NCBI GenBank assembly: GCA_012719175.1
Contig: JAAYAX010000011.1
Location: forward strand, 186,001 to 250,000
DNA length: 64,000 nt
Reading direction: 5' to 3'
Origin: Methanomassiliicoccus sp.
GTDB lineage: Archaea > Thermoplasmatota > Thermoplasmata > Methanomassiliicoccales > Methanomassiliicoccaceae
Shown here: piece after piece, positions 17,879 through 47,589 of the stretch
How positions within the stretch are numbered: position 1 is the first letter of the stretch
Layout: each line of letters opens with the position of its first letter
Notes under the pieces: model-generated
Told to the model about the DNA's origin: nothing
What the model saw: only the letters and a program-made list of their open reading frames with translations
Database searches by the model: none
Program-made: the position numbers and the translations under genes

Positions 17879-17889
17879 CTATTATAACT
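17879..17889 (-). promoter_or_regulatory. TATA box of the ACT-domain gene
   Basis: AGTTATAATAG on the minus strand lies 25-35 bp before ATG 17854. The spacing implies transcription starting at or next to the start codon. Confidence 0.5.
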
Positions 17890-17956
17890 ATGCAATAGAC
17901 ATTCACAGTCCTTTGAATCAATAGAGAATGCAAGCCCCCTCGCATCCGCCTCCAGG

Positions 17957-18964: not shown

Positions 18965-18965
18965 G

Positions 18966-20393: not shown

Positions 20394-20474
20394 GCTCAGC
20401 TCGCTTCCTGGCCGGCCCCCCTCCATATTCTAGCATAGTAGATATATGAAACGGCCCGCCGTGCCGGGCAAGCC

Positions 20475-21290: not shown

Positions 21291-21296
21291 CACCAC

Positions 21297-25005: not shown

Positions 25006-25096
25006 CAAATCGCTTTGTCGGTTCGACCAGGCCTAATCAGACTCTTCTGGCTATAAACCATGCAGGGGATAGGTCAGGGCTTTCAGAAGGATGAGC

Positions 25097-26035: not shown

Positions 26036-26040
26036 TACTC

Positions 26041-26496: not shown

Positions 26497-26520
26497 TATG
26501 ACGATCCAAGGGATGACAAC

Positions 26521-28382: not shown

Positions 28383-28386
28383 GACC

Positions 28387-29830: not shown

Positions 29831-30883
29831 ATGGCCTTCGCGCGCCCACAGGTCGCCTTCCTCATCCTTAATTGGAACAAGTGGGAGATCACCGTAGAGT
29901 GCCTGGAGTCGGTTATCCAGAACAGGTTCCGTGATTATGAGGTGGTCCTCGTCGAGAACGGCTCCAAGAACGACTCTTTTGAAAAGATCCTCTCATATTG
30001 CAGGGGAGAATTGGAGACCAGCTCGCCGTTCTTCAAATACAGCAATGACTCCAAGCCCCTGCCGGTTCGGACCGTGAAGATAAAAGAGGACGGGAGCTTC
30101 CAGATAGAAGAGGGTCATGGGCCTATGCGTGAAGGTCCAGGGCTGACGTTGATCAAGGTCGAGGAGAACCAGGGATATGCCGAGGGCAACAACATTGGCA
30201 TCAGGTTCATCTCCCAGCACGTAGACCCTCAGTATGTACTGTTCATGAACAATGATGTGGTGGTCGATCCCGACTTCCTATCGCCATTAGTGGATAGGAT
30301 GAAGGCCACAGAGGATGTGGCCATGGCTGCGCCGAAGATCAAGTACTACGAACTAAACGGCTCAAGCAACATAATCAATTGCGCAGGGTGCTTCTTAGAT
30401 ATGGCCAGGGTTCGTTCGCAGAGGCGGGGGAGGGACGAGGAGGACCGTGGACAATATGACATCGAAGGAATGGTGGATTTTGCGGACGGGGCCTGCTTCC
30501 TCATGAGGATGTCAGTGCTCAATGTCACTGGTGGCTTCGATAGGTCCTTCTTCACGTACTGGGAGGAAACGGACCTCAGCATACGCACGACGCGACTCGG
30601 TCACAAGATCATCTATGTACCCAGATCGGTAGTGTGGCATCGTGAGACGTACAGCATCGTGACCGAAAGCAAGGAGTATTATATGGTCAGGAACAGGTAC
30701 AAGTTCATACGCAAGAACGGGACTCGTTGGCAGGCCAACAGGTTCATGGCCTATCACCTACTCGTACTTCTGGTCCCGACAGTGTTGGTGTACGTGCGTG
30801 ATGGTGAGACGCAAAGGGTGAGGCCCTTCCTGAAGGGCACTGTGGACGGTGTCCGCACGTTGATGGACCATAGCGAAGGTTAA
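29831..30883 (+). CDS. GT2 glycosyltransferase, rhamnosyltransferase-like
   Basis: A 350-aa GT2-family enzyme. It starts with VAFLILNWNKWEITVECLES and VVLVENGSKNDS, then has ENQGYAEGNNIG and the DxD-type LFMNNDVVVDPDFL. The acceptor part has DFADGACFLMRMSVLNVTGG and FDRSFFTYWEETDLSIR, the ED motif of WbbL/rhamnosyltransferase-like enzymes that transfer deoxyhexoses. An insertion of about 45 residues (60-115) breaks the N-terminal half. A hydrophobic helix near residue 310-325 may bind the membrane. It directly follows rfbH, so the donor could be the CDP-dideoxyhexose. Confidence 0.88.
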   Translation: MAFARPQVAFLILNWNKWEITVECLESVIQNRFRDYEVVLVENGSKNDSFEKILSYCRGELETSSPFFKYSNDSKPLPVRTVKIKEDGSFQIEEGHGPMREGPGLTLIKVEENQGYAEGNNIGIRFISQHVDPQYVLFMNNDVVVDPDFLSPLVDRMKATEDVAMAAPKIKYYELNGSSNIINCAGCFLDMARVRSQRRGRDEEDRGQYDIEGMVDFADGACFLMRMSVLNVTGGFDRSFFTYWEETDLSIRTTRLGHKIIYVPRSVVWHRETYSIVTESKEYYMVRNRYKFIRKNGTRWQANRFMAYHLLVLLVPTVLVYVRDGETQRVRPFLKGTVDGVRTLMDHSEG

Positions 30884-30982
30884 GCATGGGAGCAGCCTAT
30901 CCGATTGCCCCTAACTTGATATATCCCCTAACAGCTGGCCCAATAAACCAATATTGGAAGGTTAATAAGTGGTGGTCTAAAG

Positions 30983-32164
30983 ATGATAACCATGATCGCC
31001 CTGGGTCCGGTCGAGTCGAACTCGAACGGCTACAGCATTCGTATCGGGCACCTCATGGACTCCCTGCTGAGGCATGATGAGGTCACCCTCATCGAGTTCA
31101 ATATCGCTGAACCCCGGGGCGGGGGAGAGACCAGATACCATAGGATAGAGTATGATGCGGTCTACCGGGAACACCGTATCGGGGACCTTCTCAACAGGAC
31201 CATAACCTTCAATCCCTTGGGACAGCTCAAGATGCAGCTCGTGTGTTTGAGGGGGCTGTGGAGGAACAGGGACCTCATAAAGAAGAGCGACGTCGTGTTC
31301 ATAGAGGGAGCGCTGTTCCCCTTTGCTATCGTCCTATGCAAGCTTTTGGGAAAGAAGGTCGTCATGGACACCCACTGCGTCAACCTCAAGCTGGCCATGG
31401 ACTTCAAGGGACATAATCGGACCGCCTATCTTCTCCGCCGAATTGCCTGGGGCCCCCTGGAGTATTTCGCATATCGTTTGTGTGATGTGATCGTTTTCGT
31501 ATCGGAAGAGGAGGTGGGGTTCTCTGAATCCACCCTGCGCATGGATAGGCGAAAGGCCTTGGTGATCCCTAATGTTCTGGACATTCCTCCTCTGTCAGTG
31601 ACTGACGGTGAGCTCGAGGAGTTCAGGGATAAGTACGGGCTCAAGGGCCGAACGGTCGCCACGTTCGTGGGGGACCTGACCTCCGTCCAGAACAAAGATT
31701 GTGTCAATTTCATCGTTGACGAGCTAGCGGACCGGGTGAGGGATGTTCGCGAGGACATCCGTTTCCTCATAGTGGGCAAGGGGGCTGACGCCTTCCCCGA
31801 CCCGCCAGTGAACATGGTGTTCACGGGATATGTGGACAAGATAGATCCAGTGATAGCAGTGACGGACATCTTCGTCGCCCCCATGAGAGTAGGTGCAGGC
31901 ACCAAGACCAAGGTTCTGTTGTTCATGGGATACTCCAAGCCGATACTGACCACTGATGTTGGGATCGAGGGCATCGACGCCCAGGGCAGGGAGGACGTGA
32001 TGGTCCGGGACCTCTCAGGCTTTCCCGAGGCCCTTCGTACCTTCCGGCAGCGTGAGGGCCAGAATATCTCTCAGAGATGCTGCATGAATGCATCTCAGGC
32101 ATATTCCCCCGAGGTAATGCGGTCCAAGGTCGACGAGCTATTGATCAACCTAAAAAAACAATGA
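30983..32164 (+). CDS. GT4-type glycosyltransferase
   Basis: A 393-aa GT-B glycosyltransferase. The N-terminal domain has ALGPVESNSNGYSIRIGHLM (acceptor loop), DVVFIEGALFPFAIVLCKLL and VVMDTHCVNLKLA. The C-terminal domain has RTVATFVGDLTSVQNKDCVNF, FLIVGKGADAFPDPP, FTGYVDKIDPVI and MRVGAGTKTKVLLFMGYSKP, the last typical of GT4 enzymes lacking a full EX7E motif. GGTGGT lies about eight bases before ATG 30983. It ends 16 bp before the first giant GT-C gene and shares its direction, so the two are probably co-transcribed. Confidence 0.88.
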   Translation: MITMIALGPVESNSNGYSIRIGHLMDSLLRHDEVTLIEFNIAEPRGGGETRYHRIEYDAVYREHRIGDLLNRTITFNPLGQLKMQLVCLRGLWRNRDLIKKSDVVFIEGALFPFAIVLCKLLGKKVVMDTHCVNLKLAMDFKGHNRTAYLLRRIAWGPLEYFAYRLCDVIVFVSEEEVGFSESTLRMDRRKALVIPNVLDIPPLSVTDGELEEFRDKYGLKGRTVATFVGDLTSVQNKDCVNFIVDELADRVRDVREDIRFLIVGKGADAFPDPPVNMVFTGYVDKIDPVIAVTDIFVAPMRVGAGTKTKVLLFMGYSKPILTTDVGIEGIDAQGREDVMVRDLSGFPEALRTFRQREGQNISQRCCMNASQAYSPEVMRSKVDELLINLKKQ

Positions 32165-32180: not shown

Positions 32181-35100
32181 ATGGGAATGAGGAATGTGAT
32201 CTGGACATGGTTGGAGGAGAGGCGGTACATTTTTGCCGCTGCGATCCTCATTTCCCTGGCCCTGACCTGCATCATATTCTTGTCGTTCCTCCTGAAGGCC
32301 GGAGTGGTCAATACCGGCGATCTGACCTGGCCATACTTCAACGAACCCGGCCTGACCGGCCTGTATCTTGACAACACCCAATCGGGCCTCATCCCCAGCC
32401 AGATGCTGGTGTATTCCTGGCTGTTCTATCTCCCCCTGGATACCGCCATCCAGGAGCGGCTCCTGTTGATGGGAGTATTCTTCCTAATGGGTGTTTCCTG
32501 CTACTACGCCACTTTCAGGATACTGCAGCAGGAGGGGGCCGAAAAGAAACTGGCCTATGTGGTGGCAGGGGCCGCCACCGTAGCTTATGTGGTCAATCCC
32601 CTGAACTTCTACTACTTGGTCGACCTGTTCCTCCTCATCGGCTTCGCATTGGTCCCTGCCCTGATCTACGTAGTGCTACGGTTCCTGAGGTCAGAGGGTT
32701 CCATCAAGGACATCGTGGTCCACGGGGTACTGACAGGAATCATAATGACCGCCTCCTCCGGGGACCCCAGATGGCCGATCTGGAACCTTTTCCTGATCAT
32801 GATCATCCTTTTAGTGTACCTGGTCTTGGGACGATTCAAGGGCTTGTCCAAGAGCGTGGGATTCCTCATCATCACTGGCATCTGCTTCACTGCCCTGAGC
32901 GCCTTCTGGATTGTGCCAACGCTAGCGGCATCGGGCCACTCCACCCTCCTTACCCGTTCGAACCTATCCATCAACTTCTACTACGTTCTGAACAAGTACG
33001 CGACGCTGGACAATACCATCATTCTTCAATCAGATTTCTGGACGCCTTCCCGCGAGCTGTTCCTGATCAGCGATACGTTTCTGAACAGCATCTGGAAGAC
33101 CGCGCAGATGGTCCTGCCGGCCTTAGCTTTCATTTCGATCCTGTTCTTCAGGCGGAATCGCACCGTGATATCACTGCTCATCATATCCTTGATCGTCATA
33201 TTGCTGGCCTCCGCCCCATTGTCCCCCCTCCAATTTTTAAAGGACGCTTATCAGTCACTGGTGTTCGAGGCTCCCTTCGGCATCGCCTTCCGTACCTCAT
33301 ACAAGTGGCTGCTCATCCTGGTATACCCATATGTACTCCTGGCATCGTTCACCATCCTTGGCCTCTCCAGACTGCCGTCCAAGTTCAACTTGAAGGTGCC
33401 AAGGTTACGCCTGGACGGCCGGAGGCTGACCAAGGTGGTCGCGGGGTCGTTGGTAACGCTCCTGGTAGCCTCCAGCCTCATCGCGGCATGGCCCCTGGTC
33501 ACTGGGGATTGCAGGGGGGTGATCGCACCGGAGGAGCTTGCTAGCGACTATGTTGAGGCCTTTGACCTCATTCAGGACGCTTCCGGCGGCGACCTCGGCT
33601 TCAAGATACTCTATCTGCCTACCAACCCATACATGGGGTTCGAGGCACCGGGCTTGGCCGACTCCCCCTACCTTCATTACATAATAACGAACCTTGAGAG
33701 CGGAAACGTGACCACTGCAGGAGGGCTGCTGGCCCCCTTGGGGGTGAAGTACATCATCCTGGACAAATTCGATTATTCCAAGGATGTCATGGAATCGTCA
33801 TTGAGGAACCAGACCGATCTCATGATCCGTTTGGACGGGGAGCGGCTCCTGGTCCTTGAGAACGGGGAGTTCGGCGACCTGTTCCGTTTATCAGACCTGG
33901 CCTTGAGCTTCGACGGTATCGAGGGCGGGGCAGCACTGGCAGCCTGGGATGGCTGGGTCCAGACGGACCAAGGTTTCCTGGACCTCGAGGAAGTCTACGA
34001 CCAGGCCCCATATCTGCTGATGGGTTCCGGTTATCCTTACAATCTGATTGCCTCCAGATCTATCACATCATCTCCTTTCAAGTACGTGCCCTACTACGGG
34101 GACCAGTCCTGGACCTGCCTGGTGGCGTACAACCCGTCGAACTACGAATGGTACCAGGCCTTGAAGACCATGGGCCTGGAGAATTGGGACCTGGACTACG
34201 GCGAGGGGCTGGCGTACACCAATGTTAGCTTGACCTATCCCCGAGACCTGCCCATATCCGACACCGCTTTGGTCAAGCAGTTCGACCTTTCGAACAGGTC
34301 CACGGTCCAGGAGTTCATCGATAACAACTACATGGAGCAGTTCGGTGCCCGGATGACCTATACTCCGGAGCTGAGCTACATGAAGGTGAAGCTCCTCGAC
34401 TCCACCGACGGGTGGAAGACCATCTGCTCACCCCTGGTGAACGTCTCCTATGGTCAAACATACGCCATCAAAATGAACATGGCCTCCGATAACGGCTTCG
34501 AGATTCACATCAAGGTCGCCGAGTACGATGAGAACGGCACCCTCCTCTCGTTCAAGCCCATGACGGGACTGGGGAGTGGTAAGATCCCCTGGGGCACGGT
34601 GCCGATGAGCTATGTGTGCAATAACACCGAGGTGAAGAAGATCAGCATCCAGATATGGCACGGTTCCAGTCCCACCACGCCACTGCCTAACGCCATATCG
34701 ATAGCGGACATCTCCATTTATGACACCAGCAAGCTGCTCATCTCTCCCCGCCTGGATGGCAAGATCGAGGTGGCGTCAGGGGGTGAATATCTCCTTAATG
34801 TGAGAACGTTGAGCAGCCCCCAGGGTGGTAACCTGACCGTGGTAATCGACGGGACCACAGTGAGATTGGAGACCAAAGGTAAAGGAACCGTCATGAAATG
34901 GTTCAACTGTGGGACGATGAACCTGTCCGCGGGAACCCATGAAGTGTCTGTATTGAACACGGACGGCCTGAACGCAGTGAACCTCATCTCCCTCATAGAT
35001 GTAGGCGAGTACAACTCCCTTCTGGAGAGATATAACTCCCAGCTTTCAGAGAAGGCCCTGGTCTATGTTCTGGACAACGGCGTGAGGACTGGCGCCACCG

Positions 35101-35780
35101 AGCTCGTGATGAACAACGACACCTCGAAAGGACCCTTAGGCCAATACCTGGCGATGGACACTGAGATCGAAGTGTTCGTGGATGGCTACTATCGCTTCTA
35201 TGTCCAGAGTAACAGCAACGTTTCATTGTGGCTCGATGGTAGTGAGGTGGAGAGCCTGAACGCCCCAACCCACTACGTGACGGTCTATCTGGAAGTAGGA
35301 GCCCATAACATTACATTTCTGGCAGAGGACCCGTCTAACTCTTCAGGCGAGGTTCTCCTGTTCTCCGCCAATGCCGGCGATACCATCGCCTCGCTAAACG
35401 AGTTCGGTAGCACGTTGGGAGGTATCTCGTCAATGGAGAAGGAGAGCGCTTCATCTTACGATCTGAGATTGTCCACCACCGGGCCGTCCTTTCTTATTTT
35501 CAACAACGCCTTCGATTCAGCTTGGTCAGTGACGCCAGAGGGAGGGGAGACGGTCTCCTCGTTCCCGGTCAACACCGCTATGAACGGCTTCATAATGGAG
35601 GGAAGCGGCAACATATCGCTCTCCCTGTCATACTCCCTTGACAGGCATTACATTCTGGGGATGACCATCTCCCTCATCGCACTCGTTACCATCATCGCCG
35701 GTGCCATAATCTATTACTCTGGTGCGGGGACAAGGTTGATCATAAAAGTTCGAGGCAAGCGGAACGGAAGAGGTCAATAG
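32181..35780 (+). CDS. giant GT-C-like membrane protein with extracytoplasmic beta-domains (1)
   Basis: A 1199-aa membrane protein. Residues about 18-440 hold ten or more hydrophobic helices with the pattern of GT-C glycosyltransferases. The first outer loop has GDLTWPYFNEPG (candidate catalytic Asp), and FEAPFGIAFRTSYKWLL precedes a helix, as in AftD-like or YfhO-like enzymes. Residues about 450-1160 are extracytoplasmic with many N-glycosylation sites. Repeated carbohydrate-binding-module-like sheets are visible, for example YLLNVRTLSSPQGGNLTVVI with LSAGTHEVSVLNTDG. Near the end is a conserved FNNAFDSAWSVTPEGG / NGFIM domain, then a C-terminal anchor helix and a basic tail. Two related proteins follow at 35811 and 40104. 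Confidence 0.82.
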   Translation: MGMRNVIWTWLEERRYIFAAAILISLALTCIIFLSFLLKAGVVNTGDLTWPYFNEPGLTGLYLDNTQSGLIPSQMLVYSWLFYLPLDTAIQERLLLMGVFFLMGVSCYYATFRILQQEGAEKKLAYVVAGAATVAYVVNPLNFYYLVDLFLLIGFALVPALIYVVLRFLRSEGSIKDIVVHGVLTGIIMTASSGDPRWPIWNLFLIMIILLVYLVLGRFKGLSKSVGFLIITGICFTALSAFWIVPTLAASGHSTLLTRSNLSINFYYVLNKYATLDNTIILQSDFWTPSRELFLISDTFLNSIWKTAQMVLPALAFISILFFRRNRTVISLLIISLIVILLASAPLSPLQFLKDAYQSLVFEAPFGIAFRTSYKWLLILVYPYVLLASFTILGLSRLPSKFNLKVPRLRLDGRRLTKVVAGSLVTLLVASSLIAAWPLVTGDCRGVIAPEELASDYVEAFDLIQDASGGDLGFKILYLPTNPYMGFEAPGLADSPYLHYIITNLESGNVTTAGGLLAPLGVKYIILDKFDYSKDVMESSLRNQTDLMIRLDGERLLVLENGEFGDLFRLSDLALSFDGIEGGAALAAWDGWVQTDQGFLDLEEVYDQAPYLLMGSGYPYNLIASRSITSSPFKYVPYYGDQSWTCLVAYNPSNYEWYQALKTMGLENWDLDYGEGLAYTNVSLTYPRDLPISDTALVKQFDLSNRSTVQEFIDNNYMEQFGARMTYTPELSYMKVKLLDSTDGWKTICSPLVNVSYGQTYAIKMNMASDNGFEIHIKVAEYDENGTLLSFKPMTGLGSGKIPWGTVPMSYVCNNTEVKKISIQIWHGSSPTTPLPNAISIADISIYDTSKLLISPRLDGKIEVASGGEYLLNVRTLSSPQGGNLTVVIDGTTVRLETKGKGTVMKWFNCGTMNLSAGTHEVSVLNTDGLNAVNLISLIDVGEYNSLLERYNSQLSEKALVYVLDNGVRTGATELVMNNDTSKGPLGQYLAMDTEIEVFVDGYYRFYVQSNSNVSLWLDGSEVESLNAPTHYVTVYLEVGAHNITFLAEDPSNSSGEVLLFSANAGDTIASLNEFGSTLGGISSMEKESASSYDLRLSTTGPSFLIFNNAFDSAWSVTPEGGETVSSFPVNTAMNGFIMEGSGNISLSLSYSLDRHYILGMTISLIALVTIIAGAIIYYSGAGTRLIIKVRGKRNGRGQ

Positions 35781-35810
35781 GCGCTTTACCACTGATGTCT
35801 CAGTGTCGTT

Positions 35811-38800
35811 CTAAACCCCCTTACCCGGGTATTTTCTCTGCCCCCTCCACCCCTTCCAGAGGAATAGGCCTGGAACCAGTAGGGCCGTGCCTATCACAGC
35901 TATCGGGATCCCGGAAGCAAGCCATGATTGTGGTTTGTACTCGACGGTGACGTCGGCATCCCCTGAGACGTTGATGATGAAGCCGTTGAGATATCCCCCC
36001 ACCGGTCGGGATACCACCTCCTGGCCTTCGAAGGAAAGCGCCCAATCCCCATCATAAACGGTCCCTGTTACCACTAGTATCTCTCCGTCCCCGTTCAAGC
36101 GAACCCGGTAGTGGGTAGGGTCGGAAGTGTCTACAGAGGTAACGTTGACACTATCGGTGCCATCATCGAAAATCCCGGACAGCTCTGAGGCGTTCGCGGA
36201 GTGCAACCATAGGGAGTCGAAGATGGCATTCGCACCTCCAGTGTTCCTGACCGCCACCAGGTGCTCTCCGGTGGTCAGATTTACAGTGCCGACATAGGTG
36301 CCGTCGAGGAAGTCGCCGTTCGCCTGGAATGGCGTCCCATCTATCAGCACCTGAATATCGCCATCGCCCACGGCCACCATCCTCAGGACCCTCCCGTCCA
36401 GGACGTTCATTGTGCCCGTGACCTCCTGGCCAGGCGATAGGGAAACGGCCGATCCTTGGCTGTATCGCCCGCTGTAATGCAGGTTTACTTCAGGATCACC
36501 CCCCATGTTCCTCCCCGCTTCCATTACGTACACGTTCTCCGAGGAGGACAGGATCGAGCTTGCCGACGAGAGAGCCGTGTCCCATCCGACCCCATCATTG
36601 ATCATGATCAGATTCACCGCATTGAATCCGCCGATGTTCCTCAATGACAGAATGTGCTCTCCTGCAGCCATGTGAACGTCTTCCAGCGTGGACCAACGGA
36701 ATCGGTTGAGGGAGGAGCCAGCGTCGATGGTGGCCACCTCCTCACCGTCCAGGGCTAGAACGAACGAGCCCCCCTGGACGTTCTCCAGGTACCGCGTGGA
36801 TATCAAGTAGTTACCCTCCGAAGGCACCTTCACGGATAGGTCCAACACCGAACCCGCATCGGTGCTGTTGGCCCACGTCAAGACCAGGCCTCGCCCATAG
36901 TCAAGGTCCCATCCCTCGATCCCCATCTGCAGTAGGTAATCCCTCCAGTTGGCATGCAGCCGGTCCAGGGTGGAGGCCTTTGACCACATGCTGTCGGGAT
37001 CGTGATGGTCGGTGCTGTCGAAGGGAGAGATCACTTGACCTTTGCCTTCCAGAAGCACCAGGTCCTCGGTCTGCGCGTTGGATATCAGCAACGTCCCGGT
37101 GGAGAATGACGATCCTTTTTCCTGCTGGGGGAACAGGATCCCTGTACGAACGGGATCGAAACCATCGACCCAATTCAGGGCGCGAAGATCGTCAAGGCTG
37201 CCCAGGACGGTCACCTTGTTCTCGGTGGCATAGGCTCTCACCGCCTCCCCCATCACCTCGTACACATGAAGTGCCCCATCATCGCGAACAAGGGTCATGT
37301 CCTTCTGCCAGGCCAGGGATGATCTCATATCCTGGGTCAGGTCCAGCAAGGAGGGTATGTCGTCCCTCAGGACGAGGTACTTCACGCCCGCTGTGGACAG
37401 GTACCGCCCGAAGTGATCGGTCTTGTTCTCAGCGAGGGTCTGGCTCAGGAAGGACCGGTAATATGCTCCATAAAGCGAGGTACCCCCGATGTCCGGTTTT
37501 CCAGAGTACATGTTATCGAGGTTGGCGACCATCTTTGTGGTCCAGTTCGTGGCGAGACCGGTCGAGGTGGGCAGCCACAGGACATTGAAATCCCCTTCCA
37601 GACTAGCCAACCAATCATTGGTGTCCAGGTATTCGGACGGTATCTCCACTGGAGCATATATGTCATTGAGGTAACCGTTGACACTGGGTCCCGCGTAAAC
37701 GGCGAAGCAAGAGAGCACCATGGCCACCACAACCCCCGCGGCCACGGCCTCGTTACGCATCTCTGAGCCTAATTTCCACTTACCCTTGAGGCGATCGGTG
37801 AGGCCAAGGATGGTCAGCACCATCAGCATGGAATAGATCAGGAACAAGGGACCGGACCACTTGTCCGGGTCCCTCAAGACCCATCCCAGAAAACCAAATG
37901 GAGAATCGAACGTGAGCCACACGTAGATGCCACCCAGCGGCCAGTTGGTGCCCAGGGATAGAAAAGTGAAGATCAACGCCATTCCCACAAGAAAGAGCGT
38001 GAGTCGGTCCCGCCGGAAGACCAGGGCAGCGTAGGCAACGACCGGCACCACCAGGCTTACGATCTCCCACACGATCTCCAGGCCCCCATGGGCCACTATG
38101 TCCACCCTAGGCCACCAGTAACCCACCCCCCTGATCACATTAAATGGATCGGAATTGAAGCTGAGCATGTCCAGTACCTCAACGGTGAGGACGCTGGAAG
38201 GTCCGCCGGCACCTTCCAGGATGGAGAGGATGTAAGGGACTATCCAGTACATGCTGCTGACAAGGAACACCAGGGTCAGGAGGGACAGCGACTTGAGGGA
38301 CGACGCTCGCTGCTCCCAGGTGGAACGCCCAACCACATGATAGGCGAAGGCTCCTGCGATCAGGATACCTAAGAACAAGGTATAATGGACCGATGTCGAT
38401 CCCACCGTCCACAGCAGGCCTGTGAGCACCAGCGTCTTTACGTCATGGTCACCGAGCCCTTTCATGGCCCCGATGAAGATGATAGGGGCCAGCGCGTATC
38501 CTGTCCACAGGAAGTAATGTTCGATGCGGTTCATCGACCAAGGATTGAACATGTAGACGACGGAGACACACACAGCGGCTAAGACCAAGGCCACGTCCCC
38601 CATTCCTGGCCATGCCTTTCTGCCAATCCATAAGGCGGCCACGTATGAGGCCAGGCCTGCGACGGTCAGGGTGCCCAAGATCATCATCTTGATGAAGGTC
38701 TCAGTAGGAACCCCGATGATCATGGCCAGGTTGATGGGTATGCCAAAACCCAGCAGCCGGTCGGTCTTGTCCAGGTTTGAATATTGGCCATACTCTGTCC

Positions 38801-39035
38801 ACATCGGATAAAGCTCAAAACGATCCAGTTCCCTAGGTGTGTTGAAGTCCCCGTACATGATGGTTCCGGGCGAGAGTATTATGTTAGATCCTACGAAGCA
38901 GACCAGCAAGACAATTAGGGCTGCTCCCAGTAGCACGACCCTATATTTCAGAAGGAACGCTTTGAACCGTCTAGGAATTCCCGAGATATCTAACCAGTTC
39001 ATTCTGAGCGAGGAGGATATATCCGATTCAGTCAT
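35811..39035 (-). CDS. giant GT-C-like membrane protein with extracytoplasmic beta-domains (2)
   Basis: A protein of about 1,074 aa, paralogous to the one at 32181. The membrane half (residues about 25-450) has MYGDFNTPRELDRFELYPMW in the first outer loop and FDSPFGFLGWVLRDPDKWSG before a later helix. The outer half has at least two CBM-like repeats, FVLALDGEEVATIDAG with MAAGEHILSLRNIGG, and IQVLIDGTPF with LTTGEHLVAVRNTGG. It ends with the shared GTVYDGDWALSFEGQEVV / GYLNGFI domain, a helix and a basic tail. The motif GWDLDYGRGL matches WDLDYGEGL in paralogue 1. ATG 39035 has AGAGG just upstream; GTG 39050 is an alternative. Confidence 0.82.
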   Translation of the reverse strand: MTESDISSSLRMNWLDISGIPRRFKAFLLKYRVVLLGAALIVLLVCFVGSNIILSPGTIMYGDFNTPRELDRFELYPMWTEYGQYSNLDKTDRLLGFGIPINLAMIIGVPTETFIKMMILGTLTVAGLASYVAALWIGRKAWPGMGDVALVLAAVCVSVVYMFNPWSMNRIEHYFLWTGYALAPIIFIGAMKGLGDHDVKTLVLTGLLWTVGSTSVHYTLFLGILIAGAFAYHVVGRSTWEQRASSLKSLSLLTLVFLVSSMYWIVPYILSILEGAGGPSSVLTVEVLDMLSFNSDPFNVIRGVGYWWPRVDIVAHGGLEIVWEIVSLVVPVVAYAALVFRRDRLTLFLVGMALIFTFLSLGTNWPLGGIYVWLTFDSPFGFLGWVLRDPDKWSGPLFLIYSMLMVLTILGLTDRLKGKWKLGSEMRNEAVAAGVVVAMVLSCFAVYAGPSVNGYLNDIYAPVEIPSEYLDTNDWLASLEGDFNVLWLPTSTGLATNWTTKMVANLDNMYSGKPDIGGTSLYGAYYRSFLSQTLAENKTDHFGRYLSTAGVKYLVLRDDIPSLLDLTQDMRSSLAWQKDMTLVRDDGALHVYEVMGEAVRAYATENKVTVLGSLDDLRALNWVDGFDPVRTGILFPQQEKGSSFSTGTLLISNAQTEDLVLLEGKGQVISPFDSTDHHDPDSMWSKASTLDRLHANWRDYLLQMGIEGWDLDYGRGLVLTWANSTDAGSVLDLSVKVPSEGNYLISTRYLENVQGGSFVLALDGEEVATIDAGSSLNRFRWSTLEDVHMAAGEHILSLRNIGGFNAVNLIMINDGVGWDTALSSASSILSSSENVYVMEAGRNMGGDPEVNLHYSGRYSQGSAVSLSPGQEVTGTMNVLDGRVLRMVAVGDGDIQVLIDGTPFQANGDFLDGTYVGTVNLTTGEHLVAVRNTGGANAIFDSLWLHSANASELSGIFDDGTDSVNVTSVDTSDPTHYRVRLNGDGEILVVTGTVYDGDWALSFEGQEVVSRPVGGYLNGFIINVSGDADVTVEYKPQSWLASGIPIAVIGTALLVPGLFLWKGWRGQRKYPGKGV

Positions 39036-39091
39036 AAACCTCTTCTTCACAGCGTTGTGGAGGACAGAAGGATGCCCTGCCCTCTTAGCTC

Positions 39092-39910
39092 CTATCTCTT
39101 AGGACGACCGAAGGCATAACCTAGCTTGTACGGGACACCTTTCAGTACCAACAGCAGATTCGCCTTAAGGGACCTCATAGGTTCCTGAGGATCGAACCGG
39201 CGAAAATGTTCCTTCGAGCCCACCAGTTCCTGGTAGCAGTCCGTATCGTGCATCCGGCGAACATCCATGCCGTACTTGTAGTTCTTCTTCCACAGCTCCC
39301 TCAGGTCCTTAGGTTCACGATGCCAGATACCTTCCTTGACCAGACCGATGCGGTTGGAGTACTTTGAGGCCTCGTAGAAAATTATCGCGTCCTCATAGGC
39401 ATGTATATCTGACATGCACTCCGGTAGGATGTTGGCGAAGGCCTTGCCCAAGATATCGCTGCGGTAGAAGCGAGGGCACATCACTCCGCTGATGGCATCG
39501 ATGTAAGATTCCATGTTCTTATGCAGAAGGTAACGGTCCGCATCGAACAGGCGTTCCAGCCAGGAAGTGGGAGCATATGATCTCTCCTCAAGGCACAGCA
39601 TGTCGTACCTGTCCGCCAACTGGACGCATCGCTCGATGGTGGTCCGTTCTAGGACCTGATCGGAGTCCATCAGGAGGTGAAAATCACCAGGACGGGCCTG
39701 GAAACCTTCTTTCCTCGCCCCCAGGACCTTGCCCTGGTACTGAATGACATCATCCGTGAACTCCCTGGCTATATCGGCCGTTCCATCCTTCGAAAAACTG
39801 TCGACGACGGTTATCTCTATATCTTGATAAGACTGGTCACGTACTGATTCCAGTGCAACCCGCAATGTATTGGCGGAGTTCAGTGTTGGAATGGTTACGC
39901 TGACCAACAT
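39092..39910 (-). CDS. GT2 glycosyltransferase
   Basis: A 272-aa GT2-family enzyme with VSVTIPTLNSANTLRVALES, ITVVDSFSKDGTADIA and the DxD-type LLMDSDQVLERTTIE. The acceptor region contains DIHAYEDAIIFYEAS, in the place of the ED catalytic motif, and a C-terminal LWKKNYKYGMDVRR stretch. There is no membrane helix. It lies 56 bp upstream of the second giant GT-C gene on the same strand, so it may be expressed with it. The donor and acceptor are unknown. Confidence 0.87.
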   Translation of the reverse strand: MLVSVTIPTLNSANTLRVALESVRDQSYQDIEITVVDSFSKDGTADIAREFTDDVIQYQGKVLGARKEGFQARPGDFHLLMDSDQVLERTTIERCVQLADRYDMLCLEERSYAPTSWLERLFDADRYLLHKNMESYIDAISGVMCPRFYRSDILGKAFANILPECMSDIHAYEDAIIFYEASKYSNRIGLVKEGIWHREPKDLRELWKKNYKYGMDVRRMHDTDCYQELVGSKEHFRRFDPQEPMRSLKANLLLVLKGVPYKLGYAFGRPKR

Positions 39911-40068
39911 AGCTTACGTCCTGGCAACGAAAGCCTCCTATAATAAAAGACTTTGCCAATGTCGTAGAACCAACTGCTGGTGGCCTGTCACGAACTGCTT
40001 TGTGGCCATTGTTGAACTATCTAATTGTGAGCGATATGCCTCCAGAGGTCTGGACCTCCCTGAAGTAG

Positions 40069-40079
40069 AAAAATATTAA
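40069..40079 (+). promoter_or_regulatory. TATA box of giant GT-C gene 3
   Basis: AAAAATATTAA lies 25-35 bp before ATG 40104, giving a leaderless transcript from that start. This argues against the earlier in-frame ATG 40080, which overlaps the box itself. Confidence 0.55.
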
Positions 40080-40103
40080 ATGCCGTCACAATCTGTAGAC
40101 ATT

Positions 40104-43100
40104 ATGGGATGGCAGCCCCGTATCGCTTCTTTGCGGACATACGTCCGCGATCTGAACTGGCGGCGGCACTTGGCGTTCGCTATCGTCCTGACCGCGTTGA
40201 CCGCGGTCCTCTTCTTCGGATATCTCTCAGGTCCCCTCCCCACCGGTACCGACTCCGAGGGGCTGGTCATGACCTGGGACATGGGCCTGTCTTCCGGTGG
40301 TCTGTTCTCTAGCTGGGAACCATACTCCGCTCTAGGATTTCAGAACGACCCCATACCACTTCCATCGGCCATGTTCACATTGGCCTCTTGGATGGGTCTG
40401 TCGGCCTCTGACATGTGCAAGATCATAATGGCAGGCTCCTTCTGGCTTGCGGGCGCAGCCATGTACCTATGCGCACTGAGGATCTCCAGGAGCTACCTGG
40501 GGTCAGGGGTCGCAGCCATTGTTTTCTGCTTCAATCAGGTGTTTCTGTCACAGATCCTTGAAGGACACTACTTCTTTGCCATAGGTTTCGCCCTGTTGCC
40601 TATCGCGTTCCTTACATTGTACCTGGCTATAGTGGAGGAGAATCGCCGGGCAGTTCTCGCGCTACCTATCGTCTTTTTCACTTACGGCGGCAGCTCCGCT
40701 CCCCACATGATACTCATCCTCAGCATATTCATCGTGGTGATGTCAGCCCTCTATTTCATCCAGGACCGGACGCGGCTGCACCGCACCGTGTATCCATTGA
40801 TCGCACTGGTCCTGCTGGTGATCCCAACCGCCCTTTCCCGCTTCTCCTCAGGCACGGGCATCCTTAACGCGTCCTACCGTCTCAGCGAAGCCCAGTTCTG
40901 GAGCTATCGAGACATCTTCTCCGCCCTGGCCCTCCGGTCCACGGAAAATTCGCACATGCGTGGTGGAACGGTCCAGAGCTGGGTCATCGTTGACGGTATG
41001 GACGACGTAATGATGATCATTTCCTTAGCGATCCCCATCCTGGCCGTATTGTCCTTGTATTTCAAGGAGCATCGCCAGCTTAAACTAGCCCTTGCGGGAA
41101 CGGGGCTGGTGATGCTGTTCTTCGCCCTGGGTCCGAACCAGCTTCTGTCCGGGGCGTTCGTCTGGATGTTCCAGAACGTCCCTCTGTTAGATAGCATCAG
41201 GGTCTTCTCCCGCTTCGGCATGTTCTTAGGCCTGGTGTACGCTATTTTGTTGGCCCTCCTGATCGCGGACCTTCAGAAACGTCCCTCGGTGAATCTGAGC
41301 ATCCCCCGATTGCCCAGCCTTCGTGTGCGGCAATCAGATAAGCTAGTGGCCGCTACCGCTGTCATGGTCGTGCTGGTGTCGTCCTCTTCGGTCTTCATCC
41401 AAGGGCCGTCATCCTTCACCCTTCCCAATTCCTACGCTGAACCCTTCGAGCTCATATCGACCATCGATGGCGACTACCGTATCCTCACCCTTCCTTACGG
41501 GGACGTCTACTACGATACATCGCTGGGCAAGTATGATGGGTACCCTCTGACCCTGACCAACGACCCCGGCTCCTACAGCCAGATAGTGACCGGCAAGGAG
41601 GTGGCCTACGGAGATCACAGCGAGGACTACTGGTCTGTGTGGGGAGCAATGATGTCCGAGCACAGGTATGGATACCGTTATCTGCCCATTCTCTTGGGGG
41701 ACACCGCCAGTGTCCGCTACGTGGTGGCACAGGTGCACTCTCCTGCAGGCGAGCTGAGCGACTTCAGGAACATGACCGGCCTCAGCGAATACGCGGTCCT
41801 TGCCGGAAAATCCACCGTCATGGTCAATGAACATTATGATGGTAGAGCACATACCGCCAACTCCTTGACCCTGACCACCGGTGGAAGGGCCGACATCTTG
41901 ACCGCGATTGCAGGCGGTGTCGTCAACCTCACGGATACAGATCTGGTATTGCTCGGGCAGATCGATGACAGCGCCGTACTTAACGCTCTCTGGGCCACCT
42001 CGCCCCATATCATAGTTCAGGAGGGCGATCTCCTGCAGCTTCTCGTCGAGAACGGTGCCTTTAACGAGGGCCAGCTTGTACATCTTGGTGAGTATGCGGA
42101 AGATACCTTGGACGACAGCAGCAGGTATTGGATCACCTCTTCCGATACCGTGAGGGACGGGTCATCGCTCCATGACAGTGCATACACCGATGGTCAAAAT
42201 GTCATGGAGGCCCCATTGACGGCAGGTGGAGCTGGCAGCTACGATGTCTACCTGAGGCATAGGACCGGTCCTGGGTCAGGAAACCTCTCGGTGACCGTTG
42301 ACGGTCAGGGTGCGGTCGCAGTACCTACCTACTCGCCCTTGTCCAGGGAGATCTGGACCAAGGTAGATACGTATGGTTTGAGCTCTTCTAAAATAACAGT
42401 TAAACTATCCTGCGACGGCTCCGGATGGTGCAGTGTGAGCGACATGCTCGTCGTGCCATCAGGGAATGTGGATGAGAAAACATCGGAGATCTCCGAACTG
42501 TTGGAGAACAGCTCCAGTTCGGTAACCTTTGTCTATGGGCCGGATGACCTGGCCATGGGGGTACAGGATTGGGGTTTGATGGAAGGCATGGAGGGTTGGG
42601 GCCTATCCTACAATGGTTCAGAGGACCCTTCCTTGGCAGTGAACGCGCTGATCCCTTTCGACGGCCTCTGGAGGATAACCCTGAGGACCATGAACGCCTC
42701 CACCGCTCCTTCGGCCATGATCGAGGGCGTTCCTATCGACGCCACCGACCTGGGGGACGGCTCTTTCGCCTTTGAGGTCAACCTCATAAAAGGGCTAAAG
42801 ACCATCGAGCTGAGAACATCCAGTGCGTACTCCGTGACCATCGGGAGCGACGGCCGCGATACCGGGGACGATCTGGCGGAAGCGGTCGTGACATATGAGA
42901 GAAAGAGCCCATGGAGCTACGTGGTCAATGTGAGCACGACCTCTCCCACCTTCCTGAAGCTGTCTGAAAGCTTCAGTGATCAGTGGACCGCACACAATGG
43001 TTCGGAGGCACTTCTCCACTATCAGTCCGGCTCCCAGGTCAACGGTTATTATTTGCCTTCAGCAGGTAACTACTCCATTACCATCGACTACGACTGGCAG

Positions 43101-43211
43101 GAGAGATACCAGACGAATCAGGTGGTCTTCATAGCCGCCACCTTAACAGCGACGGTAGTGCTGGCCGCGGCCTTATGGTGGAAAAAGGGACGGAACAATG
43201 CCCGTCAGTAA
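40104..43211 (+). CDS. giant GT-C-like membrane protein with extracytoplasmic beta-domains (3)
   Basis: A protein of 1,035 aa, third member of the giant family. The membrane half (residues about 15-440) has GTDSEGLVMTWDMGLSSGG in the first outer loop and a late DSIRVFSRFGMFLGLVYAIL, corresponding to the FRTSYKW and RDPDKWSG regions of the paralogues. The outer half has CBM-like units (SYDVYLRHRTGPGSGNLSVT; LWRITLRTMNASTAPSAMI) and a GMEGWGLSYNG motif matching the paralogues. The terminal domain FLKLSESFSDQWTAHNGSEA / QVNGYYLP precedes an anchor helix. It lacks the double aspartate of paralogue 1's first loop but keeps acidic residues there. Confidence 0.82.
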   Translation: MGWQPRIASLRTYVRDLNWRRHLAFAIVLTALTAVLFFGYLSGPLPTGTDSEGLVMTWDMGLSSGGLFSSWEPYSALGFQNDPIPLPSAMFTLASWMGLSASDMCKIIMAGSFWLAGAAMYLCALRISRSYLGSGVAAIVFCFNQVFLSQILEGHYFFAIGFALLPIAFLTLYLAIVEENRRAVLALPIVFFTYGGSSAPHMILILSIFIVVMSALYFIQDRTRLHRTVYPLIALVLLVIPTALSRFSSGTGILNASYRLSEAQFWSYRDIFSALALRSTENSHMRGGTVQSWVIVDGMDDVMMIISLAIPILAVLSLYFKEHRQLKLALAGTGLVMLFFALGPNQLLSGAFVWMFQNVPLLDSIRVFSRFGMFLGLVYAILLALLIADLQKRPSVNLSIPRLPSLRVRQSDKLVAATAVMVVLVSSSSVFIQGPSSFTLPNSYAEPFELISTIDGDYRILTLPYGDVYYDTSLGKYDGYPLTLTNDPGSYSQIVTGKEVAYGDHSEDYWSVWGAMMSEHRYGYRYLPILLGDTASVRYVVAQVHSPAGELSDFRNMTGLSEYAVLAGKSTVMVNEHYDGRAHTANSLTLTTGGRADILTAIAGGVVNLTDTDLVLLGQIDDSAVLNALWATSPHIIVQEGDLLQLLVENGAFNEGQLVHLGEYAEDTLDDSSRYWITSSDTVRDGSSLHDSAYTDGQNVMEAPLTAGGAGSYDVYLRHRTGPGSGNLSVTVDGQGAVAVPTYSPLSREIWTKVDTYGLSSSKITVKLSCDGSGWCSVSDMLVVPSGNVDEKTSEISELLENSSSSVTFVYGPDDLAMGVQDWGLMEGMEGWGLSYNGSEDPSLAVNALIPFDGLWRITLRTMNASTAPSAMIEGVPIDATDLGDGSFAFEVNLIKGLKTIELRTSSAYSVTIGSDGRDTGDDLAEAVVTYERKSPWSYVVNVSTTSPTFLKLSESFSDQWTAHNGSEALLHYQSGSQVNGYYLPSAGNYSITIDYDWQERYQTNQVVFIAATLTATVVLAAALWWKKGRNNARQ

Positions 43212-43240
43212 TATTTACATCAACAGACCTGACACCCAGG

Positions 43241-44125
43241 ATGGCATCGGTCTCCGTCGGGGTTTGCGCGTACAATGAGGAGAAGAACATCCTAAGCTCC
43301 CTTCGTTCGCTCATGGGGCAGAGGGAGGAAGGCTTCTCCTTGAAGGACATCGTCGTCGTGTCCAGCGGCAGCACCGATCGCACTGATGATATGGTCTTAG
43401 AGGTCAGCCGGTCCGATGAGCGCATCCGGCTGCTGAGGCAGGAAAGGAGGGAGGGCAAGAACTCTGCCGTCAATCTCTTCCTCTCCCAGGCTCAAGGGGA
43501 CGTTTGTGTCCTGGTGAACGCTGACAACACTCTGGAGCCGGACTCCCTAACCAAACTCCTCGCGCCTTTCAGCGACCTCACCGTGGGGATGGCTGGTGGA
43601 AGGCCAGTACCCACCAATGACAAGGGCACGGTGTCAGGGTTCGCCGTCCACATGCTCTGGGACATGCACCACCGCCTTTCGCTTCTGTATCCCAAGGTCG
43701 GCGAGCTGGTGGCCTTCCGGAATCTGGGCATCACCCTGCCGACGACGATGCAGTCAGATGAGGACATCATGCGGATGGAGCTGGAGAAGAAGGGGCTGCG
43801 GACGGTGTACGTACCCGAGGCCATCGTGCATAACAAGGGCCCCACGACCGTCCGCGACTTCCTCAAGCAGCGGACCAGGGTGAACATCGGGGAGCAGTAC
43901 ATGAAGCGCATCTACGACTATGATATTCCCACTTGGAACCCCAGGTGGCTTTTCCAGTCTTACTTGGGCTTCCTCAGGGACAACAGCCGGGAGCTCCCGC
44001 GGACCATTGCCGCAATGAGCCTGGAGGCCTATGCCCGGATCTATGCCATGCTGTACGTGAAGATGGACCGTGGTGACAAGGCGGTGTGGAGCCAGGTCAG
44101 CTCAACCAAGGACGTGGGGAAGTGA
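43241..44125 (+). CDS. GT2 glycosyltransferase
   Basis: A 294-aa GT2 enzyme with SVGVCAYNEEKNILSSLRSL, DIVVVSSGSTDRTDDMV, VLVNADNTLEPDSL as the DxD-like site and, in the acceptor half, TTMQSDEDIMRMELEKKG with the ED motif. KQRTRVNIGEQYMKR resembles the QxxRW-like region of processive enzymes, but it is not canonical. I chose ATG 43241 because a TATA-like TAATATTTAC at 43208-43218 lies about 25-30 bp upstream; the longer frame from 43175 would start inside the preceding gene. It converges with the SIS-HAD fusion gene with a 3-bp gap. Confidence 0.86.
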   Translation: MASVSVGVCAYNEEKNILSSLRSLMGQREEGFSLKDIVVVSSGSTDRTDDMVLEVSRSDERIRLLRQERREGKNSAVNLFLSQAQGDVCVLVNADNTLEPDSLTKLLAPFSDLTVGMAGGRPVPTNDKGTVSGFAVHMLWDMHHRLSLLYPKVGELVAFRNLGITLPTTMQSDEDIMRMELEKKGLRTVYVPEAIVHNKGPTTVRDFLKQRTRVNIGEQYMKRIYDYDIPTWNPRWLFQSYLGFLRDNSRELPRTIAAMSLEAYARIYAMLYVKMDRGDKAVWSQVSSTKDVGK

Positions 44126-44128
44126 GCT

Positions 44129-45160
44129 CTACTCCTTCAGTATGGCGTCCACCGCGTCGTTGAAGTCGAAGCCCCCCTTCACTTTGAAGGTCCGGCAGCC
44201 CGCAACCCGCCCCATGGTCACATCGTGGTCCCCGTCCCCTATCACAAAAGAGGAGCGAAGATCTATGTTCAGGTCCCTGACCGCCCTCTCCAGCATCCCC
44301 GTGGCAGGCTTGCGGCAGGAGCAACCCTCTTCCGGGCGGTGGGGGCAATAGTATATGGCATCCAAATGTGCCCCGTCCACGTTCAGGTCAGCCTTCAACT
44401 TCTCATGGATAGCATCAAGAGAGGCCACATCGAAGTAGCCGCGGCCCACCCCTGATTGATTGGTGACCAGGACCACCAGGAATCCCGCATCGTTCAGCCT
44501 CCTGATGGAATGACCGACCCCGGGTAACAGGTGCAGATCCTCTGGTCGGGAGCAATAGGGCACGTCCTTGGCGATGGTGTCATCGCGGTCTACAAATACC
44601 GCCTTGTGTCCGAACATTCCCTTCTCCACCAGGCCACAGATGATGTGACCGGCGCACATGTACGCCTCCTGGATGCGCGGCGTGCTCTGCGTAGGTATGG
44701 TCAACGCGAGGTCCACCATATCCTTTATCGTACCACCCGGCCCGGTGAATCCGACCGTGAAGGCACCCAGTTCCCTCGCCCGTTCCAGGGCCAGGACGAC
44801 GTTCCTAGATGTCCCGCTGGTGCTGAGGCCTACAGCCACATCCCCTTTGCGGATGCATGCCTCCAGCTGGCGCACGAACACCCGCTCGTAACCGTAATCG
44901 TTACCTATGGCGGAGATGGAGGACAGAGAGGTCAGGGCCATTCCATCAAGGGCCGGGCGTTCCATCAGGTACCTTCCTGAAAGCTCGGCGGCCAGGTGCA
45001 TGGCGTCGGCCGCGCTTCCCCCGTTCCCGAAGAACACCACCTTGCACCCCTGTCTGAACGCGCAGATCATGGCCTGGGCGATTGCCTCTATCTGCTGAGG
45101 ATCGACCGTACCGATCACGGAGGCGGATTCCTGAAGCTCATTCTCGATCAGCATGCTCAT
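44129..45160 (-). CDS. GmhA-GmhB fusion: sedoheptulose-7-P isomerase / heptose-bisphosphate phosphatase
   Basis: A 343-aa fusion. Residues 1-180 are a SIS-domain phosphoheptose isomerase (FFGNGGSAADAMHLAAELSG, then SISAIGNDYGYERVFVRQLE and VGLSTSGTSRNVVLALERA). Residues about 185-343 are a HAD phosphatase of the GmhB/histidinol-phosphatase type (AVFVDRDDTIAKDVPYC, LVTNQSGVGRGYF, YYCPHRPEEGCSCRKPATGM with the zinc loop, SFVIGDGDHDVTMG). Together with the kinase encoded just upstream it covers the first three steps from sedoheptulose-7-phosphate to heptose-1-phosphate. ATG 45160 has GGAG eight bases upstream and overlaps the kinase gene by 23 bp. In bacteria these are usually two proteins. Confidence 0.92.
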   Translation of the reverse strand: MSMLIENELQESASVIGTVDPQQIEAIAQAMICAFRQGCKVVFFGNGGSAADAMHLAAELSGRYLMERPALDGMALTSLSSISAIGNDYGYERVFVRQLEACIRKGDVAVGLSTSGTSRNVVLALERARELGAFTVGFTGPGGTIKDMVDLALTIPTQSTPRIQEAYMCAGHIICGLVEKGMFGHKAVFVDRDDTIAKDVPYCSRPEDLHLLPGVGHSIRRLNDAGFLVVLVTNQSGVGRGYFDVASLDAIHEKLKADLNVDGAHLDAIYYCPHRPEEGCSCRKPATGMLERAVRDLNIDLRSSFVIGDGDHDVTMGRVAGCRTFKVKGGFDFNDAVDAILKE

Positions 45161-46184
45161 CGCAATATCTCCAGGTCTGCAAACCGTACTTGTCGAAGTT
45201 GTAATTGACGATATCCACACCCATCTTTGCTAGCTCGTTGGCCACGGTGTGCTTGCGGTCGTACTCACATATGAAGAACATGAACCCTCCTCCTCCCGCT
45301 CCAGAGATCTTCCCTCCCACGGCCCCGTTGGTCAGCGCGGTCTCGTATATCATGTCCAGACGGTCGTTGGATATTTTAGAGGTGAAGCGCTTCTTGTACT
45401 CCCAGGACTCGTTGAGCAGCTCTCCGATGAGCCGAATGTTCCCTCTTAATAGAGCGTCCTTGGTCTCCCGTGCAAGGCGCTTGGTGTTCTCCAATGCGTC
45501 CACCACCTGCTCGTCCCTTCCAACGTACCCGGCGGTCTGGCTCTGGATGATGTTGGAGGATGCACGGGTCTTCCCGGTGTTGCCCAGGAGCAGCTGGTAG
45601 TGCAGCTCGTTCAGGATGTCGGTCTTGACCCGCAAAGGAGTGACGATGTTCTGCTGGCCATTGAACTCCATGAAGTTGAAGCCCCCGAACACTGCCGCAT
45701 ACTGGTCCTGCTTTCCTCCCGCCAATCCCAGCTCCTTGCGCTCCAGCACGTAGGCGAGGTTGGCGATGTCGTACTGGGACAGGGGCTCGTTCAGCCACTC
45801 CGCCATAGCTCCGATTATTGATACGATGACGGTTGAGGAGGAACCCAGGCCGGACCCTGGAGGCGCCTCGCAGTGCAGGAACATATCGAAGCCCCGTGAT
45901 ACCTCGAAGTGGTTCAGAACCGCCTTTATGAGGTCGAGGTTGCCATCATAGGTGAACATATCGCCGTTGGCACGCCACTTCTCCACCACACCGTAGTCCA
46001 GTGACCGGATGGTTATCTCCCGATCGTCCCGCGGGGAGATGGTGCAGTACGCGAAGCGATCGATAGTGGAATTTAGGACCGCACCGCCACGCTCGTCACA
46101 GAAAGGTGGAACATCGGTCCCCCCACCAGCGAAGCTGATCCGCAACGGTGCCTTACTGCGTATCAGCTGCTTCCTGTCGCCCAT
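45138..46184 (-). CDS. hddA: D-glycero-D-manno-heptose-7-phosphate kinase HddA
   Basis: A 348-aa GHMP-family sugar kinase. The N-terminus RSKAPLRISFAGGGTDVPPF is the HddA hallmark, followed by the ATP-binding loop PPGSGLGSSSTVIVSII, LAYVLERKELGLAGGKQDQY and the C-terminal GKISGAGGGGFMFF. It phosphorylates heptose-7-phosphate at C1 in the GDP-heptose route. Its stop lies inside the GmhA-GmhB gene, so the two are coupled. ATG 46184 is 25-35 bp from a TATA box (AATTAAATAAA, 46209-46219), implying a leaderless mRNA. The guanylyltransferase HddC is not adjacent; the pyrophosphorylase at 15449 is a distant candidate. Confidence 0.92.
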   Translation of the reverse strand: MGDRKQLIRSKAPLRISFAGGGTDVPPFCDERGGAVLNSTIDRFAYCTISPRDDREITIRSLDYGVVEKWRANGDMFTYDGNLDLIKAVLNHFEVSRGFDMFLHCEAPPGSGLGSSSTVIVSIIGAMAEWLNEPLSQYDIANLAYVLERKELGLAGGKQDQYAAVFGGFNFMEFNGQQNIVTPLRVKTDILNELHYQLLLGNTGKTRASSNIIQSQTAGYVGRDEQVVDALENTKRLARETKDALLRGNIRLIGELLNESWEYKKRFTSKISNDRLDMIYETALTNGAVGGKISGAGGGGFMFFICEYDRKHTVANELAKMGVDIVNYNFDKYGLQTWRYCDEHADRE

Positions 46185-46650
46185 CAAAACCTGATAAAGG
46201 AGGGAGGATTTATTTAATTGCCTTACTGGTCTGTCGACCCTGACGAAAGCCTCTGGATGCCTCCGGCATTAACGAAATGCAGCTGGACAAAGAGGTTAAC
46301 GGTAATGTCTCACGATCGGATTAAATAGTTCATTACTGCGACCCCAAAAAAGGCGCAAGCCTAAACCTTCACTTTTTTTTTACAATAGGTGAACTTATTA
46401 TCAATATCTGATAATGATCTTGTAAACCTCCAGTTCATTAGTTCTATAGTCTATTCTGGATAGAACAATTCAATAATAATTAACGAATAACGTAGCATGG
46501 GCCAGGATGTTGAAATTATCATTTTTGATATTAGAATTTACGATTATTGGGCTTCTTCATTCGATGAACATCTGTGCTTTTCCATTTTTAGAAATGTGCC
46601 CTAACAAACGATGTCATCTTTAATAGGGATAACAGAACATCGGAAAAAAC
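46185..46650. promoter_or_regulatory. AT-rich gap with divergent promoters
   Basis: About 465 bp without a gene, clearly richer in A+T than the flanks. AATTAAATAAA near 46209-46219 (minus strand) is the likely hddA TATA box. CTTTAATAGG near 46618-46627 (plus strand) is the likely TATA box for the amino acid importer. A nine-T run near 46371-46380 is present, but no gene ends upstream of it in the right direction. I saw no repeats or structured RNA. Confidence 0.5.
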
Positions 46651-47538: not shown

Positions 47539-47589
47539 GGCCTCCCCCTCAAATCTTTTCCATATTTTATCATTTAGGCAGGTCACAAT

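Follow-up and report, generated by a model that had tools for sequence, protein, structure and literature searches.

Three AftD-like GT-C membrane giants at the core of an apparently exchangeable surface-glycan cassette in Methanomassiliicoccus

The stretch of DNA analysed here (the window) comprises 64,000 nucleotides of Methanomassiliicoccus sp. (assembly GCA_012719175.1, contig JAAYAX010000011.1, positions 186,001 to 250,000; G000:C11:186001-250000 in our genome set), and the host genome measures 2.42 Mb and is 99.6% complete. Three open reading frames (ORFs) at positions 32181-43211 encode giant membrane proteins that are termed P1, P2 and P3 in the following (Table 1). The original prediction had described them as paralogs, and BLASTP bears this out for all three pairs, with the E values of diverged paralogs (2e-31 for P1-P2, 3e-21 for P2-P3 and 5e-10 for P1-P3). 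A profile search of the genome found no family members other than these three. The predicted length of 1199 amino acids for P1 was right, while those of about 1,074 and 1,035 for the other two were wrong, the actual values being 1079 (P2) and 1043 (P3).

A layout common to the three proteins, with many helices in the N-terminal half, an extended outer region and a single C-terminal helix, had likewise been proposed and agrees with the secondary structure of the AlphaFold2 models of P2 and P3. By a rough hydropathy count, P1 and P2 have 11 membrane segments each and P3 has 15, and P1 has an additional stretch of ~160 residues ahead of its first unit resembling a carbohydrate-binding module (CBM). 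The WxLDYGxGL motif occupies the same position in P1 and P2, but P3, for which it had also been claimed, has only a degenerate WGLSYN further along. Pfam supports the presence of glycosyltransferases between the giants and places others on either side. P2 lies on the opposite strand from P1 and P3, and hence the giants do not form one operon. We also note the stop codons, which are TAG in P1 (35778-35780) and P2 (35811-35813) and TAA in P3. TAG can encode pyrrolysine in Methanomassiliicoccales, so that read-through at the extreme C-terminus of P1 and P2 is conceivable.

Table 1. Features of the giant-protein locus and its surroundings (positions in the window; residue numbers refer to the respective protein; aa, amino acids).
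Feature	Positions	Strand	Basis
P1, AftD-like GT-C giant, 1199 aa	32181-35780	+	ORF call, Pfam, BLASTP
P1 Asp47, acid of first outer loop, candidate catalytic residue	32319-32321	+	family alignment; role by analogy with GT-CA enzymes
P1 CBM35-like unit, residues 862-938	34764-34994	+	CBM_35 24.1 bits, E 4.9e-5, below cut-off 28
P2, AftD-like GT-C giant, 1079 aa from first GTG	35811-39050	-	ORF call, family profile, structure model
P2 C-terminal W...NG domain and last helix, residues 965-1072, also in AftD	35835-36158	-	second A2-AftD stretch, 38.2 bits
P2 second homologous beta unit, residues 868-955	36186-36449	-	hhalign E 5.9e-10 to first unit
P2 CBM6/35/36-like domain, residues 670-820	36591-37043	-	CBM_35 26.7 (cut-off 28), CBM_6 23.8 (28.9); structure match
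P2 GT-C core, residues ~36-603	37242-38945	-	AftD, OST/AglB, PglB, AftA and ArnT match here
P2 Asp68, acid of first outer loop	38847-38849	-	family alignment
GT2b glycosyltransferase, between P2 and P3	39092-39910	-	Pfam
P3, AftD-like GT-C giant, 1043 aa	40080-43211	+	ORF call, tree, structure model
P3 Asp58, acid of first outer loop	40251-40253	+	family alignment
P3 CBM35/36/6-like domain, residues 659-794	42054-42461	+	structure match
Putative exchangeable cassette, defined against sister genome G003, ~20.5 kb	22763-43251		DNA and ORF comparison
SDR, RmlC/FdtA-like cupin, RfbF, RfbG, RfbH: CDP-4-keto-3,6-dideoxyhexose genes	25091-29748	+	RfbF/G/H over NCBIfam cut-offs
GT2a and GT4 glycosyltransferases	29831-32164	+	Pfam
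GT2c glycosyltransferase, right edge of exchange	43175-44125	+	Pfam, genome comparison
GmhA-GmhB fusion and HddA-like kinase (heptose phosphate), conserved right flank	44129-46187	-	strong, below NCBIfam equivalog cut-offs
Two DPM/AglJ/ArnC-like GT2s with a GT4 between them (region 20475-23719)	20478-21296, 22805-23719	both -	families far below cut-offs
EamA-family transporter	16564-17469	+	family match

The models of P2 (pLDDT 78.6, pTM 0.76) and P3 (pLDDT 81.1, pTM 0.80) were compared with the PDB by Foldseek and VIA. The three AftD entries rank top in Foldseek for both proteins, with best E values of 1.2e-21 (P2) and 2.4e-19 (P3) to 6w98. VIA also places AftD first, at Z 25.8 for P2 (741 aligned residues, root-mean-square deviation (rmsd) 4.7, spanning residues 36-1067) and Z 25.3 for P3 (721 aligned residues, rmsd 5.4, spanning residues 25-1032). 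The next matches, to oligosaccharyltransferase (OST)/AglB/PglB, AftA, DPY19, Pmt and ArnT, cover the core only, and the OST/AglB/PglB cores constitute the second-best structural group (Z ~16-22). The suspected GT-C fold with a resemblance to AftD is therefore present in both models, and no other solved structure matches them as well as AftD, which covers almost the entire chain. As modelled, P2 and P3 possess the GT-CA fold and an AftD-like architecture with CBM6/35/36-like sandwiches, a C-terminal W/NG domain and a last helix.

The family was further explored with four profiles, namely A1 (12 rows), A2 (the 34-row family), A3 (nine orthologs of P1, P2 and P3) and A4 (four AftD-like bridge proteins). 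A1 matches 11 of the 147 genomes of the order, including all seven members of the genus, and a class-level search matches 38 of 400 genomes. The extracted members measure ~800-1300 amino acids, two of them possibly shortened by contig ends. Searched against the PDB, A2 retrieves AftD at E 4e-24 (6w98) and 8e-24 (6wbx). Two separate regions match: profile columns 6-482 align with 8-464 of the AftD chain, corresponding to the GT-C domain, and columns 947-1032 with 1197-1283, corresponding to the C-terminal W...G domain together with the last helix. A3 aligns with A4 at E 6e-30 over 570 columns (hhalign), and two of the four bridge proteins, which are more distant family members, pass the Pfam GT-C_AftD cut-off of 26 bits with 61.5 and 52.4 bits; a third distant member scores just below it (22.7), and another just misses PMT_2 (25.3 against a cut-off of 26.1). 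GT-C_AftD gives matches over cut-off in 1 of 389 sampled genomes of the phylum and none in the host genome. We conclude that P1-P3 form a divergent archaeal lineage within the AftD superfamily and, by the profile test, are not members of GT53.

In GT-CA enzymes, the first juxtamembrane helix, located between the transmembrane segments TM1 and TM2, bears an essential Asp at its tip (as described in an excerpt of PMC12041299). The anticipated conserved acid in the first outer loop is found in all three giants (P1 D47, P2 D68 and P3 D58), where it sits just past TM1. By a lenient count, made with no shuffled control, 30 of the 34 family members have an acid no more than two residues from this column, and 13 of the 34 have it in the exact column. 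When A3 is aligned with A4, P2 D68 falls in the column of Asp62, which is invariant among the bridge proteins.

Carbohydrate-binding-like outer domains, the further element of the original prediction, are supported by the models, in which CBM6/35/36 structures match residues 670-819 of P2 and 659-794 of P3 (Z ~13, rmsd ~2-3); no CBM family of Pfam matches P1-P3 over its cut-off. The repeat of the form xVxxDGxxV...AGxH is real, but there are two units per protein rather than many. In the P2 frame of the nine-ortholog alignment, hhalign finds residues 724-822 and 868-955 homologous (probability 96.6), whereas the C-terminal W/NG domain shows no relationship to either unit and hence is not a third copy. 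The idea of many repeats per protein is accordingly rejected.

Mycobacterial AftD (6w98, 6wbx and 6wby; PF11847) has in common with P1-P3 a GT-C core with an acidic residue in its first outer loop, multiple sugar-binding-like beta domains on the outside, and a C-terminal W...G domain that precedes a last helix. It provides the best solved whole-chain match for P2 and P3. The two differ in that identity amounts to 11-14%, that P1-P3 fall below detection by PF11847, and that P1-P3 carry CBM6/35-like units, are archaeal and occur as three paralogs per locus.

We consider P1-P3 likely to be extracytoplasmic GT-C glycosyltransferases of the GT-CA type that represent an archaeal branch of this superfamily. 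In each, the membrane core would take a sugar from a donor that is presumably a polyprenyl phosphate, the Asp of the first outer loop may serve catalysis, and the outer CBM6/35-like sandwiches together with the C-terminal W/NG domain may hold the growing acceptor glycan. This holding role is proposed because such outer modules bind acceptor polysaccharide in EmbC and AftD (according to an excerpt of PMC11127046). Each of the three giants probably forms a linkage of its own in a single surface polysaccharide or glycan, for which the nucleotide-sugar genes and cytosolic glycosyltransferases of the cassette would supply precursors and acceptor.

Several observations weigh against this assignment. 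No GT-C family of Pfam, GT-C_AftD included, matches P1-P3 at E 0.1. YfhO (PF09586) does not match P1-P3 at this threshold either, nor the relatives scanned, and the proteins are therefore labelled AftD-like rather than AftD. Against the PDB, A3 reaches AftD at E 1.6 only, on the C-terminal part, and A4 gives no match; the sequence link to AftD is thus sound but transitive. The loop acid is missing from 4 of the 34 family members even by the lenient count, and the loop itself is modelled at low confidence (pLDDT ~50-60 in the P2 model). No dedicated donor flippase of any family was found inside the cassette. Finally, YfhO-type GT-Cs also give AftD as the best solved structure in HHpred (excerpt of PMC8035078); the best match therefore indicates fold and architecture, not AftD function, and is compatible with a YfhO-like role. 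Direct naming of the giants through Pfam or NCBIfam was tried and rejected: Pfam returns nothing for P3 and, in the outer regions of P1 and P2, only sub-threshold CBM_35, CBM_6 and PA14, while NCBIfam names none of the three, its SecF match being judged spurious.

Decoration of the YfhO/Gtr type is the main rival, and it differs from the proposal above over whether the backbone or the side chains depend on the enzymes. In such three-component systems (polyprenyl-phosphate-sugar synthase, flippase and GT-C), each giant would add one side-chain sugar to a finished polymer, which is quite possible though short of probable. The fold class is shared, and so are the presumed action outside the cell on a lipid-linked sugar, the size and possible outer sugar-binding domains (excerpt of PMC8035078). 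The DPM/AglJ/ArnC-like GT2s nearby could be makers of polyprenyl-phosphate sugar donors, and the EamA transporter left of the cassette could be a donor flippase; systems of this kind drive O-antigen seroconversion, as outlined in part of PMC11127046, and the locus described here is serotype-like. The missing YfhO match and the lack of a flippase inside the cassette argue against decoration, as does the presence of three giants per cassette versus the single decorator of known examples, although multi-GT-C systems are mentioned in the same excerpt. GT136 (Citrobacter ORF12), which adds pentofuranose to O-antigen, also combines a GT-C with a carbohydrate-binding module in a strain-variable glycan locus; its pathway differs in having a MATE flippase and pentofuranose genes, the comparison being one of descriptions (excerpt of PMC11127046).

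It is unlikely that P1-P3 are OST- or ligase-like GT-Cs, which would transfer complete glycans off a lipid carrier onto proteins or lipids. The AglB/STT3 enzymes share the GT-C core at the second-best level, yet they match the core only whereas AftD matches at full length. An STT3 identity is rejected, since PF02516 does not find P1-P3; its sole match over cut-off in the genome lies on contig C12, with none on the contig of the window (C11). That the giants are non-enzymatic carbohydrate-binding membrane proteins or transporters retaining a GT-C scaffold would agree with their strong divergence and with the fact that no activity is known for them, but is very improbable, as all three, like most relatives, have retained the loop acid and the locus is rich in glycan genes. 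The ALO domain (PF04030) is part of DprE1, an enzyme of decaprenyl-phosphate-arabinose formation. Arabinofuranosyltransferases in the strict AftD sense, using decaprenyl-phosphate-arabinose, are hardly credible and were rejected despite AftD being the best solved structural match, given that PF11847 does not match P1-P3 and the ALO domain, and with it a DprE1-type gene, occurs in 0 of 7 genomes of the genus.

The glycosyltransferase assignment gains a genomic context from comparison with related genomes, at least two of which are metagenome-assembled (others may be). The flanks and the cassette of sister genome G003 all lie on one 78.5-kb contig. Its DNA is continuously 86% identical to the window over 9967-22762 and 88.5% identical over 43252-46230, and between these flanks only two short patches align, at 67-70%. 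The G003 cassette measures ~12 kb against 20.5 kb in the window, is without RfbFGH and encodes two other giants that are 22-31% identical to P1-P3. All six of its ORFs are 65-84% identical to counterparts in the more distant genome G001 and 22-61% identical to those of the window. The reverse holds for the left flank, where each of the 15 ORFs comparable in both is closer to the window than to G001; two further left-flank ORFs matched one genome only (L103:2952 in G001, L103:4919 in the window). Two G003 ORFs closer to the window have identities of 89 and 92% to it, against 73 and 81%, respectively, to G001. On the right flank, six of eight ORFs are closer to the window, a binding protein and a permease are closer to G001, and HddA has a match in the window only. 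Cassette type thus does not follow flank relatedness, which points to horizontal exchange of the block.

Other members of the genus extend the pattern. G004, with flanks 87-92% identical to the window, has the same cassette type at 81-83% DNA identity, and G006, with flanks at ~73-87%, also has the window's type, P1-P3 being 55-57% identical as proteins. RfbG is found over cut-off in three of the seven genus genomes, which are exactly those with P1, P2 and P3; the fragmented G002 (80% complete) encodes a P3-like protein together with a fragment of P1. A quick family tree, with open forks and long branches and hence used for its well-supported groups alone, unites P1 with P2 (SH-aLRT 97) and P3 with the giants that adjoin GT2c in other genomes (SH-aLRT 100), a P3-type paralog adjoining GT2c in most genomes of the genus. 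These groupings indicate that P3 most likely descends from a position-conserved giant and that P1 and P2 belong to this cassette type. From the sequence comparisons, the giants form the core of a ~20.5-kb serotype-like cassette that species of the genus appear to swap as a block between conserved flanks.

This apparent exchange resembles the swapping of O-antigen genes among bacteria. Strain-variable islands of surface-glycan genes are already known from archaea, namely Sulfolobus (excerpt of PMC5554439) and haloarchaea (excerpt of PMC6011602); unlike these, the present case would concern a methanogen in which a whole block is exchanged between precisely defined flanks, with giant AftD-like GT-Cs at the centre and bacterial-type CDP-dideoxyhexose genes included. 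What is new is the AftD-like architecture in archaea, in triplicate and inside a serotype-like exchangeable cassette. Among the papers listed for AftD together with archaea, none concerned an archaeal AftD-like protein by its title, and titles and abstract openings on Methanomassiliicoccus glycans contained nothing on this locus. The findings would widen the AftD superfamily, familiar from the cell walls of mycobacteria, to a broad set of large Thermoplasmata proteins, most of which neither Pfam nor NCBIfam names.

More tentatively, the genus may switch its surface serotype by cassette swap. The giants would set the specificity of the cassette, with each GT-C responsible for one linkage as the polymer is built or decorated extracellularly, and would stand in for a Wzx/Wzy or ABC machinery. 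In that case the repeat unit would be predictable from the number and type of giants. In M. luminyensis, no prominent cell wall is visible in electron micrographs, according to an excerpt of PMC4153887. A surface glycan, and perhaps a virus receptor, becomes testable in cultured Methanomassiliicoccus.

RfbF, RfbG and RfbH score 428, 456 and 692 bits, respectively, and form a complete set, here in an archaeon, at 26521-29748; RfbG exceeds its cut-off in 13 of 41 genomes searched. Wzx-type flippases (PF01943) give five matches over cut-off in the genome, all on contigs other than C11. A second small mosaic lies at 46651-48378 of the window, where the G003 binding protein and permease are nearer G001 and the neighbours on both sides nearer the window. 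G004 contains an extra transposase-like ORF of 340 amino acids, presumably IS110-like, between the homologs of P2 and GT2b (L017:14634-15653). In G009, an ORF of 1359 amino acids without an assignment (L078:898-4974) lies near another giant GT-C. At 17957-20426, a GT87-like GT-C of 486 amino acids adjoins a fast-evolving protein of 335 amino acids without a Pfam match, which is 81% identical in G003 and 44-46% in three genus members that are more distantly related.

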